From Streptacidiphilus sp. P02-A3a (lineage in GTDB: Bacteria > Actinomycetota > Actinomycetes > Streptomycetales > Streptomycetaceae): a stretch of 64,000 nt of DNA. Under the pieces are notes generated by a model. That model was not told the DNA's origin. It searched no databases and was given only the letters and a program-made list of their open reading frames with translations. The stretch is taken from assembly GCF_014084105.1 (NCBI RefSeq), contig NZ_CP048289.1, positions 5,961,922-6,025,921 on the forward strand. The letters are read 5' to 3'. The position numbers were made by a program, and so were the translations under genes. Shown here piece by piece: positions 6,601 to 64,000 of the stretch (positions are counted from its first letter, which is position 1; every line of letters starts with the position of its first letter).

Positions 6601-7311
6601 TCAGGAGTGGTCGCTGCGGTCGTCCGGTATCACGAAGAACTCCGTGACCAGGCAGGCCACCTCGCCGCTGGCGGTGCGGCCGATCCAGGTCGGGTAGACG
6701 CCGTCGCCCCAGCCGGACGAGAAGGCGACCAGGTTGTGCCCGCTCTCCGGGGCGGTGAGGGTGACCACCCCGGCGGACCACTCCACCGCCTCGAACGCGG
6801 CCATCAGCGTCTCGGTGTCGCTCTCGAAGTCGCCCAGCGGCTCGACCGCCTCCGCGTCCACGAAGCAGCCCGTCCCGGCGTCGACGCCGTAGCCGTAGAA
6901 CTCGTCCTCACCCAGCGCGCCGAGGTCCTGCTCCGGCACGACCGCCTGCTCCCAGACGGCGACCGGCTGGTCCGAGATCACCAGCCGGGCGGCGGCGACC
7001 CGCCGGTGCGGCTGCTCGGGCTCGGGCTCGTGGTCCAGTTCACGGTCGGACTCCGACTCCGGGTCCTCCGGCGCGGTGATCTCCAGCATCGAGGCGGTGA
7101 CCTGGTAGCGGCCGGGCGGGACGGTCACCGTGAACGGGTCGCCGCCGTAGGCGCCGAGGCCGGTGAACGGGTCGCAGGCGACGATCCGCCCGCTGGGCAG
7201 GGACAGCTCCACCGGAGGGGTGACCAGGACCGTGCCGAGTTGACCGCTGGGGAAGGCGAATTGCTCACCGGCGGTGAACATGCGGGCGACATCGGGCGCG
7301 GCGAACGACAT
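6601..7311 (-). CDS. DUF4241 domain-containing protein
   Basis: A 236-residue soluble protein with no signal peptide or membrane segment. The stretch YGYGVDAGTGCFVDAEAV and the ending SSGWGDGVYPTWIGRTASGEVACLVTEFFV are diagnostic of DUF4241. The N-terminal half carries a PPGRY strand and an acidic insert rich in Glu-Pro pairs at about residues 82-103. The function of the family is not established. Some relatives occur beside polymorphic toxin or immunity genes, but no toxin is visible here. Confidence 0.85.
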   Translation of the reverse strand: MSFAAPDVARMFTAGEQFAFPSGQLGTVLVTPPVELSLPSGRIVACDPFTGLGAYGGDPFTVTVPPGRYQVTASMLEITAPEDPESESDRELDHEPEPEQPHRRVAAARLVISDQPVAVWEQAVVPEQDLGALGEDEFYGYGVDAGTGCFVDAEAVEPLGDFESDTETLMAAFEAVEWSAGVVTLTAPESGHNLVAFSSGWGDGVYPTWIGRTASGEVACLVTEFFVIPDDRSDHS

Positions 7312-7413
7312 GAGGCAGTCCTCGGCAGTGTGGGTGGGATCGACCGAAGACTATCGGCGACCACCGTCAACCGCGCCAGGCGGCCCGCCCGCAGGTTTCC
7401 CCGGTCCGCCCGG

Positions 7414-8022
7414 TCAGCCCTCCGCCGTGGCGCCCAGCCGGGCCGCCAGCGTGCTCGGCAGCGGGTAGGAACGCTCCGCCGGGAGCAGCCCGGCGGCGTC
7501 CGGGTCGCCCCGGCGGGCCAGGTCGCGGATGCGGTGGGCCTGCTCGGTGACGTCGGTCAGGGAGACCGTCCAGGAGTCGAGGTACTGGTCCACCGCGGGG
7601 CCGCTCAGGCCGAGTTGCAGTGAGCGCCAGGGCAGTGGCCGCAGCCGCAGGTCGCGCTCGGGGTCCCACTGGAACCGCACCGGGCTGTGGTGCAGGTCCT
7701 GGCGCCACTGCTCGCGGGTGGCGTGCAGGGCCGGGGTGTAGCTGGACGCGGTGGCCAGGCCGAGCGCCGCCTCGAAGCCCTCCCGGGTCAGCTCGACGGC
7801 CAGCACCCGCTCCTGGCCGGGGGCGGTGGCCCAGGCGCTGCGGTACATCATCCACAGGAACGAGGGCTTGATCCAGGTCATCCGCTGCCGCTTGAACCCG
7901 GCGCCGAGGCGTTGCCCGGCGACCGCCGGTCCGGCGATCGCCGGGTCGAAGGCCTGGTAGACGGTGACGGTGTGCTCGGTGTGGGCGGCACGGATCTGAT
8001 GGTTCGGGGCATTTGTCGACAC
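7414..8022 (-). CDS. DUF4291 domain-containing protein
   Basis: A 202-residue protein that starts at a GTG. It holds the family signature VYQAFDP near residue 21 and RMTWIKPSFLWMMYRSAWAT (47-66), followed by QERVLAVELTREGFEAAL. DUF4291 proteins are widespread in bacteria and fungi and have no assigned biochemical role. There is no clear ribosome binding site. It lies 102 bases from the DUF4241 gene on the same strand, so co-transcription is possible. It diverges from a small HTH gene. Confidence 0.87.
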   Translation of the reverse strand: MSTNAPNHQIRAAHTEHTVTVYQAFDPAIAGPAVAGQRLGAGFKRQRMTWIKPSFLWMMYRSAWATAPGQERVLAVELTREGFEAALGLATASSYTPALHATREQWRQDLHHSPVRFQWDPERDLRLRPLPWRSLQLGLSGPAVDQYLDSWTVSLTDVTEQAHRIRDLARRGDPDAAGLLPAERSYPLPSTLAARLGATAEG

Positions 8023-8105
8023 ATCTGCGATGATCGCCGCTCCGCCGGGCCCGGCGCCACGGAATTGAGCGGGACATCTCCGCGTCCGGCCCCCGCCGCC
8101 CCACG

Positions 8106-8151
8106 TGTCAGGAATTCTTGACAGGATGATCGATTGTCAGGATAACCTGAC
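8106..8151 (+). promoter_or_regulatory. Paired TGTCAGGA palindromes before a small HTH gene
   Basis: Two symmetrical elements share the octamer TGTCAGGA. The first is TGTCA-N8-TGACA (8106-8123). The second is GTCAGG-ATAA-CCTGAC (8136-8151) and ends three bases before the ATG, leaving no room for a normal leader. The GATAAC inside the second element resembles a -10 box. Autoregulation by the adjacent HTH protein is the natural reading, but it is inferred. Confidence 0.6.
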
Positions 8152-8154
8152 GAC

Positions 8155-8397
8155 ATGACAGACGAAGAGATCCCGACCGCGCTGGCCGGGCAGGTCACCA
8201 GCAAGGACCCGGCCATCGGCCTGCAGGCCATCGTCGCCCTCCGCCGCCTGATGGAGGAGCTGGAGCGGCTGCATGTCGACAGTGCCCGCGACCAGGAGTG
8301 GACCTGGCAGCGGATCGCCAACGAGCTACAGGTCAGCAGGCAGTCCGTGCACGAGAAGCACGCCCCCCGACGGAAGGCCACCGGCAAGGAGAAATGA
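8155..8397 (+). CDS. Small helix-turn-helix protein
   Basis: An 80-residue protein. An N-terminal helical part (LQAIVALRRLMEELERLHVDSAR) leads into a sigma-region-4-like HTH, TWQRIANELQVSRQSVHEKHAPRRK (50-74), and a basic tail. The ATG is essentially leaderless and abuts a palindrome. From memory, relatives of this protein in actinomycetes are often followed by a gene with a Clp N-terminal domain. That partner is absent here, since the next gene 285 bases on is a glycosyltransferase. It is probably a DNA-binding autoregulator. Its targets are unknown. Confidence 0.8.
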   Translation: MTDEEIPTALAGQVTSKDPAIGLQAIVALRRLMEELERLHVDSARDQEWTWQRIANELQVSRQSVHEKHAPRRKATGKEK

Positions 8398-8681: not shown

Positions 8682-10355
8682 ATGACCGCAGCACCATCGC
8701 CGACGCCGTCGGCAGCACACCTGCCCCAGCCGCCCGACGACCGCGAACTGTACTGGTACTTCGGGCCGCAGCGGCGCTGGGTCCTGATCTGCGCCTCGTT
8801 CGCGTTCGTACTCACCGCCGCCAGCATGCTGGCCTTCTCGCTCCGAACCCCCGCCCTGTGGGGATTTCTGGGCGTGCTCCTGCTCAATCTCGTGGCCTTC
8901 GCGCTCTCCTGCGTCAACAGCCTGCGCGGCCGCAGGCTCACCCGCCGGTCGCACGAGGTACTGCTGCGCGCCTGGCAGCCGCCCGACCCGCCGAGCGTCG
9001 ACCTGTTCCTGCCCACCTGCGGCGAACCGCTGGACGTGCTGGACAACGCCTACCGGGCCGTGGCGACCCTGGAATGGCCGGGGGAACTGGCCGTCTGGGT
9101 GCTCGACGACGGCGACCGGCCCGAGGTGGCCGCGCTCGCCGAACAGCACGGCTACCGCTACGTGGTCCGCCCCGACCGGGGCCGACTGAAGAAGGCGGGC
9201 AACCTCAACCACGCGCTGACGCTCAGTCAGGGCGACTATGTCGCCATCCTGGACGCCGACTTCGCACCCCGGCACGACTTCCTGCTGCACCTCGCGCCCT
9301 ACTTCGCGGACCCGGCCGTCGGCATCGTGCAGAGCCCGCAGTGCTTCGACACCGACGCCACGATGAACTGGATCGAGCGCGCCGCCGGATCCGCCCAGGA
9401 GTGGTTCTTCCGCTGGATCCAGCCCTCCCGCGACGCCAGCGACGCCGCGATCTGCTGCGGCAGCAACGCGCTGTACCGGCGATCCGCGCTGGACCTGGTC
9501 GGCGGCGTCGCCGAGTTGGAGCACAGCGAGGACATGTACACCGGGCTCGCGCTGTACGAGCGGGGCTACCGCACCCTGTACGTCCCGGTGCTGCTCGCCA
9601 AGGGCACCTCGCCGGACAGCCTGGGCGCGTTCGTCAACCAGCAGTACCGCTGGGCGATGGGCAACCTGCACCTGACCCGCAGCCGCGACCTGTCCCGGAT
9701 CGGCGCGACCTGGCGGATGCGGCTCTGCTTCTACGAGGGCGTCGTCGGCTACCTGTCGATGTTCGTCAACACGGTCACCGCGCCGCTGCCGCCGCTGGTG
9801 ATGATGTTCGGCTATCCGCAGCTGGTCCGCCCGCTGGACGTGCTGCCGCTGCTCGCGCCGCTGTGGCTCTGGCAGGTGCTGCTGCCCCGGGTCAGCCGCA
9901 CCCGCTGGCGGATGGAGGTGATCCGCGCCAACACGCTGATGAGCATGTCCGCCGGAGCCGCGCTGCTGGACACCCTGCGCGGGCGCACCGCCGCCTGGGT
10001 ACCCACCGGCGCCGGACGCGGCGGCAGACTCGCCCGGCGGGTCCTGCTGGCCTCGGCCGGATGGCTGACGCTCTGCCTCGGCGCGGCCGTCGTCGGCCTG
10101 GCGCTGACCGTGGCCCGGGTCGGCTGGCAGCCCGCCTGGGGGCTCGGCCTGTACGTCCTGGTCCAGGGCCAGATCGGGCTGCCACTGCTGCGCGACCTGG
10201 CACGCGAACTGCGCCCGCGCCCCCGGGCGACGGCCGCGAGCGGCGCCCGGCCGCTGGTGCAGCCCCGGCGCTGGCCGGAGGCCCTGGCCATCACCTCGGT
10301 GCTGGCCCTGGTCGCCCTGTTCGCCTCCGGCTGGGTCACCCCCATGCTCCCGTAG
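8682..10355 (+). CDS. Processive family 2 glycosyltransferase, cellulose/chitin synthase-like
   Basis: An inner-membrane polysaccharide synthase of 557 residues. Two N-terminal membrane segments precede a cytosolic GT-A domain that holds all processive-synthase residues: DDG (142-144), DAD (191-193), SED with the catalytic base Asp284, and QQYRW (320-324). Four or five further membrane segments form the export channel. There is no PilZ domain, so the cyclic di-GMP control of BcsA is missing. The nucleotide sugar cannot be told from sequence. The next gene, 100 bases downstream, encodes a membrane acyltransferase fused to a glycanase, which suggests a made, decorated and trimmed exopolysaccharide. 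A dre palindrome 50 bases upstream links expression to amino sugars. Confidence 0.9.
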   Translation: MTAAPSPTPSAAHLPQPPDDRELYWYFGPQRRWVLICASFAFVLTAASMLAFSLRTPALWGFLGVLLLNLVAFALSCVNSLRGRRLTRRSHEVLLRAWQPPDPPSVDLFLPTCGEPLDVLDNAYRAVATLEWPGELAVWVLDDGDRPEVAALAEQHGYRYVVRPDRGRLKKAGNLNHALTLSQGDYVAILDADFAPRHDFLLHLAPYFADPAVGIVQSPQCFDTDATMNWIERAAGSAQEWFFRWIQPSRDASDAAICCGSNALYRRSALDLVGGVAELEHSEDMYTGLALYERGYRTLYVPVLLAKGTSPDSLGAFVNQQYRWAMGNLHLTRSRDLSRIGATWRMRLCFYEGVVGYLSMFVNTVTAPLPPLVMMFGYPQLVRPLDVLPLLAPLWLWQVLLPRVSRTRWRMEVIRANTLMSMSAGAALLDTLRGRTAAWVPTGAGRGGRLARRVLLASAGWLTLCLGAAVVGLALTVARVGWQPAWGLGLYVLVQGQIGLPLLRDLARELRPRPRATAASGARPLVQPRRWPEALAITSVLALVALFASGWVTPMLP

Positions 10356-10455: not shown

Positions 10456-13419
10456 ATGTCGTCCCTTGCCGATCCGGCCACAAGCCGGAAGGCGGACGCG
10501 CCCCCCACGGCGGACCCCCGCCGCGCATTCCGTCCCGATATCGAGGGCCTGCGGGCTCTCGCCGTCCTCGTCGTCCTCGCCTTCCACGCCGACATCCCCG
10601 GGTTCACCGGCGGATACGTGGGGGTGGACGTCTTCTTCGTGATCTCCGGCTACCTGATCACCGGGCTGCTGCTGCGTGAGGCCCTGGCCACCGGCCGGGT
10701 CCGGCTCGCCGAGTTCTACTCCCGCCGCGCCCGTCGCCTGCTCCCCTCCGCCGGACTGGTCCTGGCCGCCGTCAGCCTCGCCGCACTGGTCCTGATCGGG
10801 CCACTGAGCCGGACCGACGTCTACCACGACATCCTCGCCGCCGCCCTCTCCGTCTCCAACTGGCGCTTCATCAGCGAGCAGACCAACTACCTGGCGGCGG
10901 GGCGCGATCCGAGCCCGCTGCTGCACTTCTGGTCGCTGGCCGTGGAGGAGCAGTTCTACCTGCTCTGGGCGCCGCTGTTCGCCCTGCTGGCCTGGCTGTT
11001 CCGGCGCGGCGGCGCGGAGCGGACCCCCGCCCGGCGCCACCGCCGCAACCGCCGACTGCGCGGCACGCTGGCCGTACTGGTCGCCGTCACCACCGCCGTC
11101 TCGCTGCTGCTCTGCCTGCGCTGGAGCCAGGACTCGGTGTCGCTGGCCTACCTGGGCACCCCCTCCCGGGCCTGGCAGTTCGGCGTCGGAGCGCTGCTGG
11201 CGCTGCTGCCGACCGGGCTGCGCCTCCCGGCCGCGCTGCGCCGCTGCTGCGGCTGGGCCGGGCTGGCCGCGATCCTGCTGGCCACCGTCTGGTACACGGC
11301 GGCCACCCCCTACCCCGGGTCGGCCGCGCTGCTGCCGACCCTCGGGGCCGCGGCGGTGCTCGCGGCCGGGCTGCCCGGCCCCGGTGACGACGGCCAACTG
11401 TCCTACAGCGCCGCCAGGTTGCTCGGCACCCGGGCGCCGCGCGCGCTCGGCCGGCTCTCCTACAACCTGTACCTGTGGCACTGGCCGGTGCTGGTCCTCG
11501 CCGACGACTGGACCGGCAGAACACTGCCCTGGCCAGTGAAGGCCGCGCTGGTACTGGCGTCCGCGCTCCCGGCGGCGGCCACCCTGCGCTGGGTCGAACG
11601 TCCGCTGCGCCGCTCCCCCGTGGTCACCGAACTGCCCAGGCGCGGGCTGTCGTTGGGCCTCACCGCGATCGCCGTCCCGGTGGTCCTGGCGCTGGTCGCG
11701 GGCACCGGCACACTGCACACCCTGGGCTCGGCCGCGCCGGTCGCCAGCGCCGGGCTCCCGGCGGGCGCCGTCACCGGCGGCAGCCTGCTGGTCGGCGGCG
11801 CCAAGGCCGCCGGCAGCGGCCCGGTGATCCCCACCCCGATCCAGGCCCGCAACGACTACCCGCCGGACGGCGACTGCGAGGTCGCCCCGGCGGCGGTCAG
11901 CAGCCCGCCCTGCGAGTTCGGCGACCTCAGCAGCTCGCACCGGATCGTGCTGCTCGGCGACTCCCACGCCGGCCAGTGGTTCTCGGCGATGCTCGGCATC
12001 GCCGCCACCCGCCACTGGGGGCTGGAGGAGCTGGTGAAGCAGGGCTGCCCGCTGCCGCAACTATCAGTGGTAAATCCGCAGTTGGGACACACCTACACCG
12101 AGTGCGACAGCTGGCGGACGAACACCGTGGCCCGGCTGCGCAGCGAACCCAAGCCGGACCTGATCGTGATCGCCTCGCTCAACCGCTACACCGACAACCA
12201 GTCGCTGCTGCTCAACGCCTGGAACCGGACGCTGGCGCCGCTGCGCGCGCTGGGCGTGCCGATCGTCTACCTCACCGACACCCCGGTACCCGGCCTGGAC
12301 GTCCCCGCCTGCGTCTCCGACCACCCCGGCGACCTGGGACTGTGCGCCGTGCCCCGGTCGCAGGCGCTGTGGCCGGACCCGCTGTCGGCCGCCATCGCCG
12401 CCGGGCGCGAGCCGGGCGTGCACCAGGTCAGCGTCAACGACGTGCTGTGCCCGGGCTCCGGCAGCGACTGCCCGGCGGTACTGGACCGGGTGCTGCTCTA
12501 CCGGGACACCGCGCACCTGACCAACGCCGCGGTGGTCATCCTCACCGACCGGTTGCAGCAACTGCTGTCCGCGCAGGGGTTGTTGGGTGACGGCTGGACC
12601 ACCCTGCTGGAGGACGGCTTCCAGGGCCCGGCGGGCAGTCGGCCGAACCCCGCCCTGTGGGAGTACGACACCGGGACCTGCTACCAGGGCTGCCCGGCAC
12701 CGCACTGGGGCACCGGCGAGGTGGAGACCATGACCGACTCGACCGCCAACGTCCGCCTCGACGGGCACGGCGACCTGGAGATCGTGCCCACCCGCGGCGG
12801 CGGCCCGTCCGGGGCCTGGTCCTCGGGCCGGATCGAGAGCCGCGGCTCGTCCTTCGCGGCGCCGCCCGGCGGGATCCTGCGGATCTCGGCGACGATCGCC
12901 CTGCCCGACGTCAGCGGTCCCGCCGCCACCGGCTACTGGCCGGCGTTCTGGACGCTGGGGGCCGGGCTGCGCCCGAGCTTCAGCAGCTGGCCGGGCGTCG
13001 GCGAACTCGACGCCATGGAGAGCGTGGACGGCCGCCCCTCGGTGTTCGGCACCATGCACTGCGGGATCACCCCGGGTGGCCCCTGCGACGAGCCGACCGG
13101 CCTCGGCTCGGGTGAACACCCCTGCGCCGCCTGCGTTCAGGGGTTCCACACCTACACGGTGGAGGTCGACCGCTCGACCTCGCCCGAGCAGGTCCGCTGG
13201 TACCTCGACGGCACCCTCTACCACGAGGTGACCGCCGCCCAGATGGACGCGGCCACCTGGGACGACGCGGTGCACCACGGAGTGTTCCTGATCCTCGACG
13301 TGGCGGTCGGCGGCTCGTTCCCGGGCGTCTACGGCGGCGCGGTGCCCACCGGCGCCACCCAGCCGGGCCATCCGATGCTGGTCCGCAACGTCACCGTCTC
13401 CGCCAGAGCCGGGAACTGA
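10456..13419 (+). CDS. Three-domain fusion: acyltransferase 3, SGNH domain and GH16 glycoside hydrolase
   Basis: A 987-residue membrane protein with three catalytic-type domains. Residues about 25-410 are an OafA/YrhL acyltransferase (AT3) with roughly ten membrane helices and the motifs RPDIEGLRALAVLVVLAFH and FWSLAVEEQFYLLW. Residues about 480-705 form an extracytoplasmic SGNH hydrolase-like domain with GDSH (501-504) and the C-terminal pair Asp684 and His687. Residues about 713-987 form a GH16 beta-jelly roll with the intact active-site motif ELDAME (850-855). AT3-SGNH proteins O-acylate exported polysaccharides. GH16 enzymes cleave beta-glucans and related polymers. Joining decoration and cleavage in one polypeptide is unusual. 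The frame is continuous, with no sign of an assembly join. A small AT-richer patch (about 12058-12080) lies in the SGNH part. Confidence 0.9.
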   Translation: MSSLADPATSRKADAPPTADPRRAFRPDIEGLRALAVLVVLAFHADIPGFTGGYVGVDVFFVISGYLITGLLLREALATGRVRLAEFYSRRARRLLPSAGLVLAAVSLAALVLIGPLSRTDVYHDILAAALSVSNWRFISEQTNYLAAGRDPSPLLHFWSLAVEEQFYLLWAPLFALLAWLFRRGGAERTPARRHRRNRRLRGTLAVLVAVTTAVSLLLCLRWSQDSVSLAYLGTPSRAWQFGVGALLALLPTGLRLPAALRRCCGWAGLAAILLATVWYTAATPYPGSAALLPTLGAAAVLAAGLPGPGDDGQLSYSAARLLGTRAPRALGRLSYNLYLWHWPVLVLADDWTGRTLPWPVKAALVLASALPAAATLRWVERPLRRSPVVTELPRRGLSLGLTAIAVPVVLALVAGTGTLHTLGSAAPVASAGLPAGAVTGGSLLVGGAKAAGSGPVIPTPIQARNDYPPDGDCEVAPAAVSSPPCEFGDLSSSHRIVLLGDSHAGQWFSAMLGIAATRHWGLEELVKQGCPLPQLSVVNPQLGHTYTECDSWRTNTVARLRSEPKPDLIVIASLNRYTDNQSLLLNAWNRTLAPLRALGVPIVYLTDTPVPGLDVPACVSDHPGDLGLCAVPRSQALWPDPLSAAIAAGREPGVHQVSVNDVLCPGSGSDCPAVLDRVLLYRDTAHLTNAAVVILTDRLQQLLSAQGLLGDGWTTLLEDGFQGPAGSRPNPALWEYDTGTCYQGCPAPHWGTGEVETMTDSTANVRLDGHGDLEIVPTRGGGPSGAWSSGRIESRGSSFAAPPGGILRISATIALPDVSGPAATGYWPAFWTLGAGLRPSFSSWPGVGELDAMESVDGRPSVFGTMHCGITPGGPCDEPTGLGSGEHPCAACVQGFHTYTVEVDRSTSPEQVRWYLDGTLYHEVTAAQMDAATWDDAVHHGVFLILDVAVGGSFPGVYGGAVPTGATQPGHPMLVRNVTVSARAGN

Positions 13420-13481: not shown

Positions 13482-15908
13482 CTACCCGGCCGCGGGCGGC
13501 GTCCACTGCTGGTTGGACCCGCCGTTGCAGGTCCACAGGTCCAGCTGGGTGCCGTTGGTGATGTTGAACCCGGGGTCGTCCAGGCACTTGCCCGACACCG
13601 GGTTGTAGAGCATGCCGATCTGCTGCTGCCACTGCTGGTTGGCGCCGCCGTTGCAGTCCCACAGCTCGATCTCGGCGCCGTTGACCTTGCTGCCGCCGGT
13701 GATGTCCAGGCACTTGCCGTTGATCCGGACGGTGCCGTCGGTCTCCACCGTCCAGTTCTGCGCGCCGGTTCCGTTGCAGCCCCACATCTGCACCGGGGTA
13801 CCGTCGGCGCTGGACCCGGTGTTGTCGTCCAGACAGGCGAGGCTGTCGTCCCCGGCGGTCACCGGACCGGTGACCGCGCTCGGCGTGCCGTTCTGAGTGA
13901 CCGTCAGGTTGTCGAACTGGTCCGTCTGGTAGCCGCTGGTGCCGAGCCCGACCATGCCGGTGCGGTAGGTCCCGTCACTGGCGGAGCCCACGGTGACACC
14001 GTCGATCGCGGCGGTGACGGTGCTGCCCTGGAAGGACAGCGACAGGTGGTGCCAACTGCCGAGGCCCAGCGCCGACACCGTCCCGGCGGCCAGCGTGGTG
14101 AGCGTGTCACTGGTGTTGTTGCGCACGATCGACCAGGCTCCGGTGTTGCTGACCTGGAGGTAGTACGCGTCGATCCCGGCCGGACCGAAACTGTGCTGCC
14201 AGCCGACGCGGCCCAGCAGCTGGACCGCGCCCGCCTGTTGGATCAGCGCGTCGGCCGAGACCGTGTAGTCGCTCCAGCCGAGCCCGCCGCCGATGGTGTA
14301 CGGGTTGGAGTTGCCGTCCCACTCGATCGGCTGCGTCGGGGCCTGCTGCGCCAGGCACTTGCCGGAGCGCCCGCCCGCGCAGGGCTCCACCTCGAACGCC
14401 CCCTGCTGCTGGCTCAGGTAGGGCGGCTGCTGGTCGGTGGTGTCGTTGTCGAAGGTGTCCGAGTAGGGCAGCGACAGCGTGCTCCCCGCCGGACCGGCCG
14501 CACTGCCCTTGCCCTGGCCGCTGGTGGTGGTCAGCGAGTAGACGTACCCGGGTTGCACGGTCAGCGTGTACGAGCCGTTGACCGGGGTGACGCTGGGCTG
14601 CTGGACGAAGTAGTCGGCCGGGTCGCTGGAGTCCAGGTCGGTCGCCCACACGTGCACCGTGCCGTCGGACAGGCCGCCGGACACGTTCAGGGTGACCGTC
14701 TGCGCGGCGGTCGCGGTGGTGGTCTCGATGACCGTCGAGTAGTCGGAGCCGTTCGTGGACTTCAGCGAGACGTAGCTGCCGTTGGACTCGCTGCCGCCCA
14801 GGTAGCCGGAGCCGGAGTCGAGGAACTGCCAGCCGGGGGCCGTGAACTGGGTGACCTGGGCGGTGGCCCAGGTGCTCGCGCCGACGCTGTAGCCGCCCGA
14901 CCAGGGCTGGTCGGCCAGGACCAGGCCGTCGGTCTGGTACGGCAGGTTCGGGTAGACGGCGGCCACCACCGGCCAGTTGATGTACGCGGTCAGGCCCGCG
15001 TCGGTGTAGCCGCGGGTGATCGAGCGGATCAGCGCGGGCGCGCCCGCGTCGTCGTCCTGCGAGCCGTTCTCGCTGGCCCACAGCGGCTTGCCGGTACCGG
15101 TCGCGGTGGAGTTGCCGGTGCAGGTGTCGGCGCTGCCGCCGTCGCCGCCCGCGCACGGGTAGTGCACGCCGATGATGGAGACCGCGTTGGCGAAGGCCGA
15201 GTTGTCGGCGACGTCGGTGGCGATGCTCCAGTCACTGTCCGCGCCGACGATCTGCACCGATCCGTAGCCGTCGGCGTTGAGCGTGGACCGCAGCTGCTCG
15301 TACCAGGCGACGTTGTAGCCGCGTTCGTTCCAGCCGCCCAGGTAGTTGATGGACAGCCCGTGCGAGGCCGCGCAGCCGAGCCAGTCGACCAGGTAGTTGA
15401 TCATGTCGGTGGACCAGAAGGTGCCGTTGCCGATCCAGCCGGGCGCACCCCAGGCCAGCCCGTACAGCTTGATGCCCGGGTTGAGCGCCTTGGCCTGCTC
15501 CATCAGCCACCACTCGTAGCCGGTGCCGCAGTCGACGGCCGAGGCGGTGTGCATGTGGCTCGACTCGGAACCGTCGGTGGAGTTGGTGTCGCCGCCGATC
15601 TCGACCTTCAGGATCTGCAGGTCGGCCCCGTAGCCGGGCTTGAACAGGTAGTCCAGGATCTGCTGCCGCTGGGCCGCCGGGTAGTCGGTGAGCAGCCGGG
15701 TGTTGCCCCCACCGCCGCTGATCGCACCGATGCCGTCGAACGTCCGGCCGCCGCTGCCGCCGTTGACGGCGATGGTGGTGGCGGTGGCGGCGCTGGCCGC
15801 CGGGGCGGACAGGCCGCCGACGAGCGCCGATCCCAGCAGCGCCAGCAGGACCAGCAGCACGAGCTGTCGTAATCTCCGTCGGTATCTCCGTCGGTGGATC
15901 CGGATCAC
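13482..15908 (-). CDS. Secreted GH59 beta-galactosidase (galactocerebrosidase-like) with ricin-type lectin domain
   Basis: An exported glycosidase of 808 residues. The GTG at 15908 was chosen because GAAGGGA lies seven bases upstream. A very basic n-region then leads into the hydrophobic core LVLLVLLALLG and an AxA cleavage site. The GH59 domain starts at FDGIGAISGGGGNTRLL. The acid/base glutamate is in GGWNERG (Glu195) and the nucleophile in WASENGSQ (Glu280). A beta-sandwich follows. The C-terminal 130 residues are a ricin-type trefoil with three repeats of the GKCLD ... NQQW type (CBM13). GH59 enzymes remove galactose from galactosylceramide or other beta-galactosides. Here the likely target is environmental glycan. 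Confidence 0.92.
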   Translation of the reverse strand: MIRIHRRRYRRRLRQLVLLVLLALLGSALVGGLSAPAASAATATTIAVNGGSGGRTFDGIGAISGGGGNTRLLTDYPAAQRQQILDYLFKPGYGADLQILKVEIGGDTNSTDGSESSHMHTASAVDCGTGYEWWLMEQAKALNPGIKLYGLAWGAPGWIGNGTFWSTDMINYLVDWLGCAASHGLSINYLGGWNERGYNVAWYEQLRSTLNADGYGSVQIVGADSDWSIATDVADNSAFANAVSIIGVHYPCAGGDGGSADTCTGNSTATGTGKPLWASENGSQDDDAGAPALIRSITRGYTDAGLTAYINWPVVAAVYPNLPYQTDGLVLADQPWSGGYSVGASTWATAQVTQFTAPGWQFLDSGSGYLGGSESNGSYVSLKSTNGSDYSTVIETTTATAAQTVTLNVSGGLSDGTVHVWATDLDSSDPADYFVQQPSVTPVNGSYTLTVQPGYVYSLTTTSGQGKGSAAGPAGSTLSLPYSDTFDNDTTDQQPPYLSQQQGAFEVEPCAGGRSGKCLAQQAPTQPIEWDGNSNPYTIGGGLGWSDYTVSADALIQQAGAVQLLGRVGWQHSFGPAGIDAYYLQVSNTGAWSIVRNNTSDTLTTLAAGTVSALGLGSWHHLSLSFQGSTVTAAIDGVTVGSASDGTYRTGMVGLGTSGYQTDQFDNLTVTQNGTPSAVTGPVTAGDDSLACLDDNTGSSADGTPVQMWGCNGTGAQNWTVETDGTVRINGKCLDITGGSKVNGAEIELWDCNGGANQQWQQQIGMLYNPVSGKCLDDPGFNITNGTQLDLWTCNGGSNQQWTPPAAG

Positions 15909-15970: not shown

Positions 15971-18109
<2,139 letters not shown>

Positions 18110-52761: not shown

Positions 52762-62373
<9,612 letters not shown>

Positions 62374-62449
62374 CGTTCAGGCCGCTGTTCCCGCACCGGA
62401 GAACGCGCCCGAACCGGGCACCCATGACTAACGAAGAGGCTGAGACCGC

Positions 62450-64000
62450 ATGGCGAACGAGGAAAAGCTCAGGGACTACCTCAACCGGGTGGCCACCGAA
62501 CTGCATCAGACCCGGCAGCGACTTCGTGACACTGAGTCAGCCCAGAGCGAGCCGATCGCCATCGTCGGCATGAGCGGCCGCTTCCCCGGCGGCGCCGCCT
62601 CCGCCGACGACCTGTGGCAACTGGTCACCGAGGAGCGGGACGTCATCGGCGGCTTCCCGCTGAACCGGGGCTGGGACCTCGACGGGTTCTACGATCCGGA
62701 TCCCGACAGCACCGGCAAGACCTACGTCCGCGAAGGCGGGTTCCTGCACGAGGCCGCCGAGTTCGACGCCGAGTTCTTCGGGATCTCCCCGCGCGAGGCG
62801 CTGGCCGCCGACCCGCAGCAGCGGCTGCTGCTGGAGGCCTCCTGGGAGGCACTGGAGCACGCGGGCATCGACCCCTCGACCCTGCGCGGCAGCGCCACCG
62901 GCGTGTTCGCCGGAGTCATCGCCCAGGACTACGGCCCCAGCCTGCACCATCCACCGGCCGAGAAGACCGACGGCTATGTGCTGACCGGCAACACCTCCAG
63001 CGTGGCCTCCGGCCGGATCGCCTACACCTTCGGCTTCGAGGGTCCGGCGGTGACCGTGGACACCGCCTGCTCGTCCTCGCTGGTCGCGCTGCACCTGGCG
63101 GTGCAGTCGCTGCGCTCCGGCGAGTCCGACCTGGCCCTGGCCGGCGGCGTCACCGTGCTGTCCACCCCCGGTATCTTCATCGAGTTCAGCCGCCAGCGCG
63201 GCCTCGCCCGCGACGGCCGGATCAAGGCCTTCGCCGGTGCCGCCGACGGCACGGCCTGGGGCGAGGCGGTCGGCGTCCTGGTCCTGGAGCGGCTCTCGGC
63301 CGCCCAGCGGCTCGGGCACCGGGTACTGGCGGTGATCCGGGGCAGCGCGGTCAACCAGGACGGCCGCAGCAGCCAGCTGACCGCCCCGAACGGCCCCTCG
63401 CAGCAGCGGGTCATCCGGCAGGCCCTGACCAACGCCCGACTCACCCCGGCCGAGGTCGACGCGGTCGAGGCGCACGGCACCGGTACCACGCTCGGTGACC
63501 CGATCGAGGCGCAGGCGCTGATCGCCACCTACGGCCAGAACCGGCCCGCCGACCGGCCGCTGTGGCTCGGCTCGCTCAAGTCCAACATCGGCCACACCCA
63601 GGCGGCGGCCGGTGTCGCCGGGGTGATCAAGATGGTCCAGGCGATCCAGCACGGTGTGCTGCCCAAGACCCTGCACGTGGACGAGCCGTCGCCGCACGTC
63701 GACTGGTCGGCCGGGACCGTCGCATTGCTGACGGATGCTCAGCAGTGGCCGGAAACAGGTCAGTTGCGTCGCGCCGGGGTGTCGGCGTTCGGTGTCAGCG
63801 GCACCAACGCGCATGTGATCCTGGAGCAGGCCCCGGCCGTCGAGTCGCAGCCCGCGACCGCTCCGGCCACGCCCCTGCCGTGGGTGCTCTCCGCCCGGAC
63901 CCCGGACGCGCTGGCAGCCCAGGCGGAACGCCTGCTCACCCTCGCCGAAACCCCGGACGCCCCGCACCCGGCCGACATCGCCACCGCGCTGCTGCACTCG
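62450..64000 (+). CDS. Type I modular polyketide synthase, second protein (5' part)
   Basis: The reading frame runs from the ATG at 62450 to the window end without a stop (517 codons). Residues 1-30 ([22 protein letters not shown]) form the N-terminal coiled-coil docking domain that pairs with the C-terminal helices of the preceding PKS. A complete KS follows, starting [15 protein letters not shown], with Cys207 in DTACSSSL, His in EAHGTGT and His in SNIGHTQAA. The KS-AT linker begins at [16 protein letters not shown]. It lies 76 bases after the first PKS gene in the same operon and supplies module 2. Confidence 0.95.

Follow-up and report, generated by a model that had tools for sequence, protein, structure and literature searches.

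A three-domain protein joining AT3, SGNH and GH16 domains beside a cellulose-synthase-like gene in Streptacidiphilus and related actinomycetes

We analyzed a window of 64,000 nucleotides from Streptacidiphilus sp. P02-A3a (contig NZ_CP048289.1, positions 5,961,922 to 6,025,921), in which one gene encodes a membrane acyltransferase domain (AT3), an SGNH acyltransferase domain and a GH16 glycanase domain in a single polypeptide, 100 bases downstream of a gene for a GT2 synthase. The frame at 10456-13419 on the plus strand is uninterrupted (987 codons, zero internal stops), and its codon-position composition supports a genuine gene. Each of the three domains is known in kind, as are chains that both modify and cut a polymer; the combination of AT3, SGNH and GH16 in one chain is new. 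No description of such a protein was found in the open-licence literature, as judged from titles and the beginnings of abstracts among the matches listed. The features of the two genes are the following.

8682..10355, plus strand: GT2 processive synthase, 557 amino acids, BcsA/CesA-like, first gene of the module (Pfam PF13632/PF00535; phmmer; Foldseek)
10456..13419, plus strand: AT3-SGNH-GH16 fusion protein, 987 amino acids (open frame; relatives)
10537..11586, plus strand: AT3 membrane acyltransferase domain, residues 28-377 (PF01757; motifs R33-X10-H44, GGYVGVD at 52-58 and RRARR at 90-94; E381 lies just past the domain)
11635..11724, plus strand: 11th transmembrane helix, residues 394-423, which should bring SGNH and GH16 outside (model helix, hydropathy, loop charges)
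11875..12558, plus strand: SGNH acyltransferase domain, residues 474-701 (PF19040; Foldseek match to the OafB SGNH domain 6se1; S503 in GDSH, D684 and H687 in DTAH)
12592..13404, plus strand: GH16 domain, residues 713-983 (phmmer matches to 3dgt and 7eo3; Foldseek)
12679..12693, plus strand: cysteine loop C742-C746 (CYQGC), specific to GH16 domains of the module (alignment of 54 module and 23 solo GH16s)
13003..13020, plus strand: GH16 catalytic motif ELDAME, with E850 (nucleophile by homology), D852 and E855 (acid/base by homology) (77 aligned GH16s)

A preliminary description of the window, made from its letters alone, had read AT3, SGNH and a complete GH16 with an intact ELDAME active site in this one frame, and that reading stands, with the qualification that Pfam calls only two of the three domains. 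AT3 (PF01757, E 9.7e-29) and the SGNH family fused to AT3 (PF19040, E 3.7e-25) were assigned directly. The window protein has the R-X10-H, RXXR and GGYxGVD motifs described for AT3 proteins (PMC7448272), the 11th helix and the Ser-Asp-His triad of SGNH (S503, D684, H687); among named NCBIfam models the top score belongs to SucT, yet it falls far under the cut-off (253.5 vs 1275 bits). The GH16 family PF00722 stays below the Pfam gathering score (16.2 vs 22 bits), which we take as a limit of the model and not as absence of the domain, since four GH16 paralogues in the same genome miss the threshold too (one with 21.6 bits, three not listed). By phmmer, residues 713-983 align with residues 8-275 (of 280) of 3dgt, an endo-1,3-β-glucanase of Streptomyces sioyaensis (E 6e-96), and residues 713-982 with the compost enzyme 7eo3 (E 1.6e-84). 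Foldseek, run on a predicted model, likewise ranks 3dgt first (54% identity, template-modelling score 0.79 by target length) and also matches the OafB SGNH domain 6se1. The E-x-D-x-x-E motif characteristic of GH16 is present at E850/D852/E855 on a jelly-roll fold matching 3dgt; the roles of the two glutamates were assigned by aligning the motif with E141 and E146 of the compost GH16 (PMC10992293). The GH16 domain is thus complete and clear in sequence terms, and endo-1,3-β-glucanase activity is predicted for it from the 54% identity to 3dgt. All six catalytic residues of the two outer domains (S503, D684 and H687; E850, D852 and E855) are unchanged in 36/36 aligned fusions.

The same architecture recurs in many relatives, and a sequencing or assembly artefact is therefore ruled out. 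A full-length match in one row was found in 43/200 sampled genomes of the family, counting that of the window. When 394 genomes were sampled across the class, such full-length matches were confined to the window's family (4 rows, including its own), accompanied by one match in two pieces (G381) and one partial match (G451); among 150 relatives, some genomes of another family in the order have the fusion as well, in single frames (G100, G093, G095). Within the window's genus, 3/14 listed genomes have the fusion (G000, G003 and G007, the latter in pieces). A further set of named loci, the best 80 of 114 found with the GT2 as bait, contains the intact fusion in 48/80 cases, distributed over Streptomyces, Kitasatospora, Catenulispora, Actinocrispum and Crossiella. 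Broken frames of the fusion occur in Streptacidiphilus sp. 4-A2, which has the most similar GT2 of all the named loci (84%). A chance open reading frame of high-GC DNA was also ruled out, by homology, codon composition and the ratio of nonsynonymous to synonymous substitution rates (dN/dS). No plasmid record covers 80% of the fusion in one place.

The upstream gene has the properties of a processive GT2 synthase: the D, DxD, ED and QxxRW motifs, membrane helices and a BcsA-like fold. Its best phmmer matches are BcsA chains (E 3.5e-44), and Foldseek on its predicted model places BcsA on top, followed by CesA and hyaluronan synthase. The residues D142-D143, D191-D193, E283-D284 and Q320-Q321-Y322-R323-W324 are invariant in 40 sequences. 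The PilZ domain expected of BcsA is absent from the Pfam matches of the 557-residue protein, and on the gene map no sizeable unassigned gene adjoins the GT2 and the fusion or separates them, no BcsB model having been run against each neighbour. The window genome holds no second match to the GT2 besides itself. Plasmid records matching the GT2 number 779, none covering 80% of it; among the 25 listed, identity does not exceed 37% (across 52% of the protein) or 35.6% (across 77%). A scan for sigma-70 promoters and terminators found none, and the sigma-70 model says little for an actinobacterium.

The GH16 domain belongs with the adjoining synthase, as the preliminary description had supposed. In the 16 loci that were selected by the fusion and not by the GT2 (L035-L050), the GT2 immediately precedes the fusion on the same strand in 16/16 cases, at distances of up to about 675 bases (L049), whereas the other flanking genes vary between genome groups; the fusion is therefore tied to the GT2. 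It is in pieces in three of these loci (L046, L047, L048). The last of them (genome G038) was considered as a GH16-free locus and rejected, half a GH16 lying there in another frame, so that the locus is broken or misassembled.

Genomic support of a second kind comes from five more distant relatives, namely Longispora (L156), Solihabitans (L159), Catelliglobosispora (L161), Sinosporangium (L180) and Streptosporangium (L182), in which GT2, AT3-SGNH and GH16 are three adjacent genes in the same order. L161 and L180 show a 4-base overlap between the AT3-SGNH frame and that of GH16. In L159, a frame of 89 codons lies between the GT2 and the rest of the module. In Sinosporangium L180, a transposase-like gene on the opposite strand (7160-8266, by eye) lies between GT2 and AT3-SGNH. 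Each of the five free GH16s starts with a hydrophobic segment and a cysteine in a lipobox-like setting (ASC, TSC or AGC; by eye, with starts taken from a gene caller or a list of open reading frames), and they look like lipoproteins.

An outward-facing GH16 site, anticipated in the preliminary description, agrees with the topology of the fused form at the level of prediction. In the AlphaFold model of the fusion, which is of moderate confidence (predicted local distance difference test score, pLDDT, 77; predicted template-modelling score 0.64), 11 membrane helices were read by hand, and the GH16 comes after the last of them. When the N-terminus is set inside, the most basic loop (185-199, 6/15 Lys/Arg) falls inside as well and the helix 394-423 points outward; the remaining membrane loops are mostly too low in charge to help. 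SGNH and GH16 are accordingly placed by the model at the outer membrane face, this last helix leading outward. The linker between them is short in the window protein (the DxxHLT block ends 23 residues before GH16 starts, and the last SGNH helix makes up part of this stretch). A search of a viral structure library returned as its best match an unnamed protein of 637 residues, taken as AT3-SGNH-like and not relevant. Since the free forms are lipoprotein-like and the fused form stands behind the 11th helix, the GH16 is probably tethered at the outer face either way, by a lipid when free and by fusion otherwise; we regard this tethering by two routes as the most telling new fact.

The phylogeny of the GH16 domains separates the module from other GH16s. 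A tree of 77 sequences (49 fused, 5 free module members and 23 hand-picked solo GH16s including the four paralogues of the window genome; quick method, no bootstrap) places the 54 module GH16s on one side and the 23 solo GH16s on the other side of a branch with 99% support in the Shimodaira-Hasegawa-like approximate likelihood ratio test. E850, D852 and E855 are kept in 77/77 sequences, while C742 and C746 are each cysteine in 53/54 module GH16s and in 0/23 solo ones. The median dN/dS in 19 independent close pairs, none of which includes the window for want of a sufficiently close partner, is 0.238 for GH16, 0.252 for SGNH and 0.181 for AT3. Purifying selection maintains the GH16 domain. For the 54 members still carrying it, the idea that it is a decaying passenger was rejected, given the retained catalytic residues and the closeness of its dN/dS to that of SGNH in the 19 pairs. 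The preliminary description had named the loss of the catalytic glutamates in close homologues as evidence that would speak against it, and such evidence exists in part: they are intact in 54/54 module GH16s, but five related loci lack the domain or its core, as detailed below.

Several known systems resemble the module in part. OafA/OafB, OatA and SucT share with the window protein the AT3 motifs, the 11th helix and the SGNH triad outside, and the window protein adds a GH16 after SGNH. Fusions of AT3 with alanine racemase and, in Eukarya, with other partners have been described (PMC9833829). The whole GH16 domain aligns with 3DGT from S. sioyaensis and 7EO3 from compost (54% and 49% identity), which have the same ExDxxE site; those enzymes are proteins of their own, whereas the window GH16 is borne by a membrane acyltransferase and has the extra C742/C746 pair. 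Closer in principle are PgaB and PelA, in which one polypeptide likewise alters acyl groups and cuts an exported polymer. Both combine a deacetylase with a glycoside hydrolase, and PgaB cuts poly-N-acetylglucosamine made in situ only when its deacetylase domain is active (PMC5933820). An architecture and gene order of this kind are present here, with domains of predicted acyl-modifying and polymer-cutting activity beside a synthase gene, although the domains are different ones (a CE4 deacetylase in PgaB) and PgaB and PelA remove acyl groups, while the window fusion is predicted to add them. In the succinoglycan system, too, acylation of the polymer governs its cleavage; ExoH is an AT3 and ExoK a GH16, but there the proteins are separate and the polymer is a heteropolysaccharide. 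Unsuccinylated succinoglycan of exoH mutants resists ExoK/ExsH (PMC4916376). These two systems show that the acyl state can gate cutting. In a Gram-positive setting, the clostridial ccsZABHI locus combines a GT2 synthase, a proposed O-acetylation pair and a glycanase (PMC7710045); these proteins are all separate, the glycanase is a GH5, the acetylation proteins are PatA/PatB-like and the synthase has a PilZ domain. A genome-mining paper on Streptacidiphilus assigns GH16 to hemicellulose degradation, and its text makes no use of the word acyltransferase (PMC7601586).

On balance, we consider it probable that the fusion serves a two-gene polysaccharide system as its maturation subunit, acylating and trimming a β-glucan made by the GT2. 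The polymer is most likely a β-glucan, judging from the relatives of the synthase, and perhaps contains β-1,3 links, which are suggested because the closest solved GH16s are β-1,3-glucanases; the compost enzyme acts on curdlan (PMC10992293). The GT2 would polymerize the β-glucan in the cytoplasm and thread the chain across the membrane in the manner of cellulose synthase. The AT3, as its motifs and fold suggest, would then take an acyl group (probably acetyl) from acyl-CoA and carry it across the membrane, where SGNH would add it to the emerging chain. Beside the exit, the GH16 would cut this chain, probably at β-1,3-linked glucose, and thereby set its length or release it, as its homology and intact active site lead us to expect. 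A more specific version, advanced tentatively and with low confidence, is that cutting is gated by acylation: SGNH would write marks on a new kind of actinobacterial surface β-glucan leaving the GT2, and GH16 on its short link would read them and cut only where they are present or absent. In that case the fusion would be a molecular ruler for chain length, and relatives of Streptomyces would possess a further dedicated surface-glycan system beside CslA/GlxA and MatAB.

A number of observations weigh against the maturation model. That the polymer is acylated, which acyl group it receives, and that it is cut and not transglycosylated are all inferred from motifs, fold and homology. The nearest solved relatives of the GT2 are cellulose synthases (β-1,4), whereas the GH16 points to β-1,3, and the linkage is unreadable from sequence; the barley (1,3;1,4)-β-glucan synthase appears only at rank 31 among the structural matches of the GT2, and no motif that settles the linkage was found in the available part of a paper on a Gram-positive (1,3;1,4)-β-glucan synthase (PMC10374906). 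Serine S112, essential in OafA (PMC7448272), seems in an alignment by eye to match S134 here, a position with alanine in the consensus of the 36 fusions. In the AlphaFold model, pLDDT falls below 50 at 741-758 and 855-889, the active-site loops of GH16, so the model does not establish how the active sites lie relative to each other, and we draw no inference on the arrangement of the domains. One weaker match from the search that yielded the 16 fusion-selected loci (L054) lacks a GT2 upstream; it is an AT3 fragment, 50% identical to the AT3 domain, where a contig ends, and it may not represent this module.

A further objection concerns modules without the cutter. A complete AT3-SGNH is present in 73/80 of the GT2-selected named loci, which together with the window give 74 rows: 49 fused, 5 split into adjacent genes and 20 without an intact GH16. 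Fifteen of these 20 form a separate clade of GT2 plus AT3-SGNH modules in Kitasatospora and Streptomyces, recognized in the AT3-SGNH tree (L163, L165, L167-L173, L175-L179 and L181). Four loci near S. griseus end after SGNH (L119, L142, L143 and L174, with S. sindenensis and S. parvus among them), and in Streptomyces candidus (L147, 7282-9918) an in-frame deletion removes the GH16 core with the catalytic motif and leaves AT3-SGNH intact. Because a related GH16-less module exists and either the whole GH16 or its core has been lost from five other relatives, cutting is optional. The S. candidus locus is a natural GH16-dead module. On the AT3-SGNH tree of the 74 rows, the fused state requires five changes, four of them forced by the starred branches; the tree is unrooted and silent on which state is older, and several long branches leave its deep order unsure. 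Fused and GH16-less modules occur within one assembly in three cases: Kitasatospora indigofera (L118/L170), K. purpeofusca (L104/L175) and Kitasatospora sp. Root107 (L152/L179). No hidden GH16 remnants were detected behind the GH16-less modules at E <1e-3 in the loci tested. Long matches containing stops were considered as GH16 remnants and not confirmed in L062 and L063; others, such as that in G543, lay outside the comparison.

Alternative functions of the GH16 were weighed against the same evidence. It is unlikely that the domain is a transglycosylase joining glucan chains to one another or to a wall acceptor, in which case the fusion would anchor or branch the polymer and not shorten it. 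GH16-type folds cover both kinds of enzyme, the transglycosylase Crh5 (6ibu) appearing in the Foldseek list (E 2.8e-3), and there is a weak Pfam match to SKN1/KRE6 (E 0.049); permanent tethering to the membrane would suit remodelling, and the module-specific residues C742/C746, F864 and P880 may change the cleft. Yet the nearest relatives by far are hydrolases of β-1,3-glucan. We find it distinctly improbable that the GH16 is a surface-held scavenging or antifungal glucanase merely carried by the acyltransferase and not processing the cell's own glucan: its nearest solved relatives are of degradative type, as are four more GH16 matches in the window genome, but the GH16s of the module group in a clade of their own, separate from the 23 solo sequences, and accompany GT2 and AT3-SGNH whether fused or unfused, and the fused GH16 is free of the CBM6, ricin-B, F5/8C binding or other domains borne by the four paralogues. 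Least likely of all is a clearing enzyme that frees polymer jammed at the membrane for homeostasis only, an idea to which the tolerated loss of GH16 in some relatives lends some weight, since the host organisms are monoderm, without an outer-membrane periplasm that could trap polymer, and its permanent attachment to the acyltransferase points to a regular step. The model for such an enzyme is AlgL, reported to clear accumulated alginate (PMC8829089).

Polysaccharides made by synthases are often acylated and trimmed, usually through separate proteins. The fused, split and cutter-less versions of the maturation module found in nature allow a direct test of how acylation, cutting and chain length are linked, and the module hints at an unstudied glucan on the cells of Streptomyces, Kitasatospora and Streptacidiphilus, including the culturable S. 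griseus (L113).

Further genes were noted in the window. The convergent neighbour of the fusion (13482-15860, minus strand) encodes a GH59 protein (galactocerebrosidase-like) with a C-terminal ricin-B lectin domain; it also lies beside the module in Streptacidiphilus sp. 4-A2 (G007, L046; 87%) and not in the other 15 fusion-selected loci. The gene at 16115-18109 (plus strand) encodes an oxidoreductase of the Old Yellow Enzyme/FadH type, near a mycofactocin-associated family of such enzymes (429.4 bits, cut-off 793.15). At 52861-64000 (plus strand), two very long frames with ketosynthase-like starts are probably type I polyketide synthase genes (by eye), the second of which runs out of the window.

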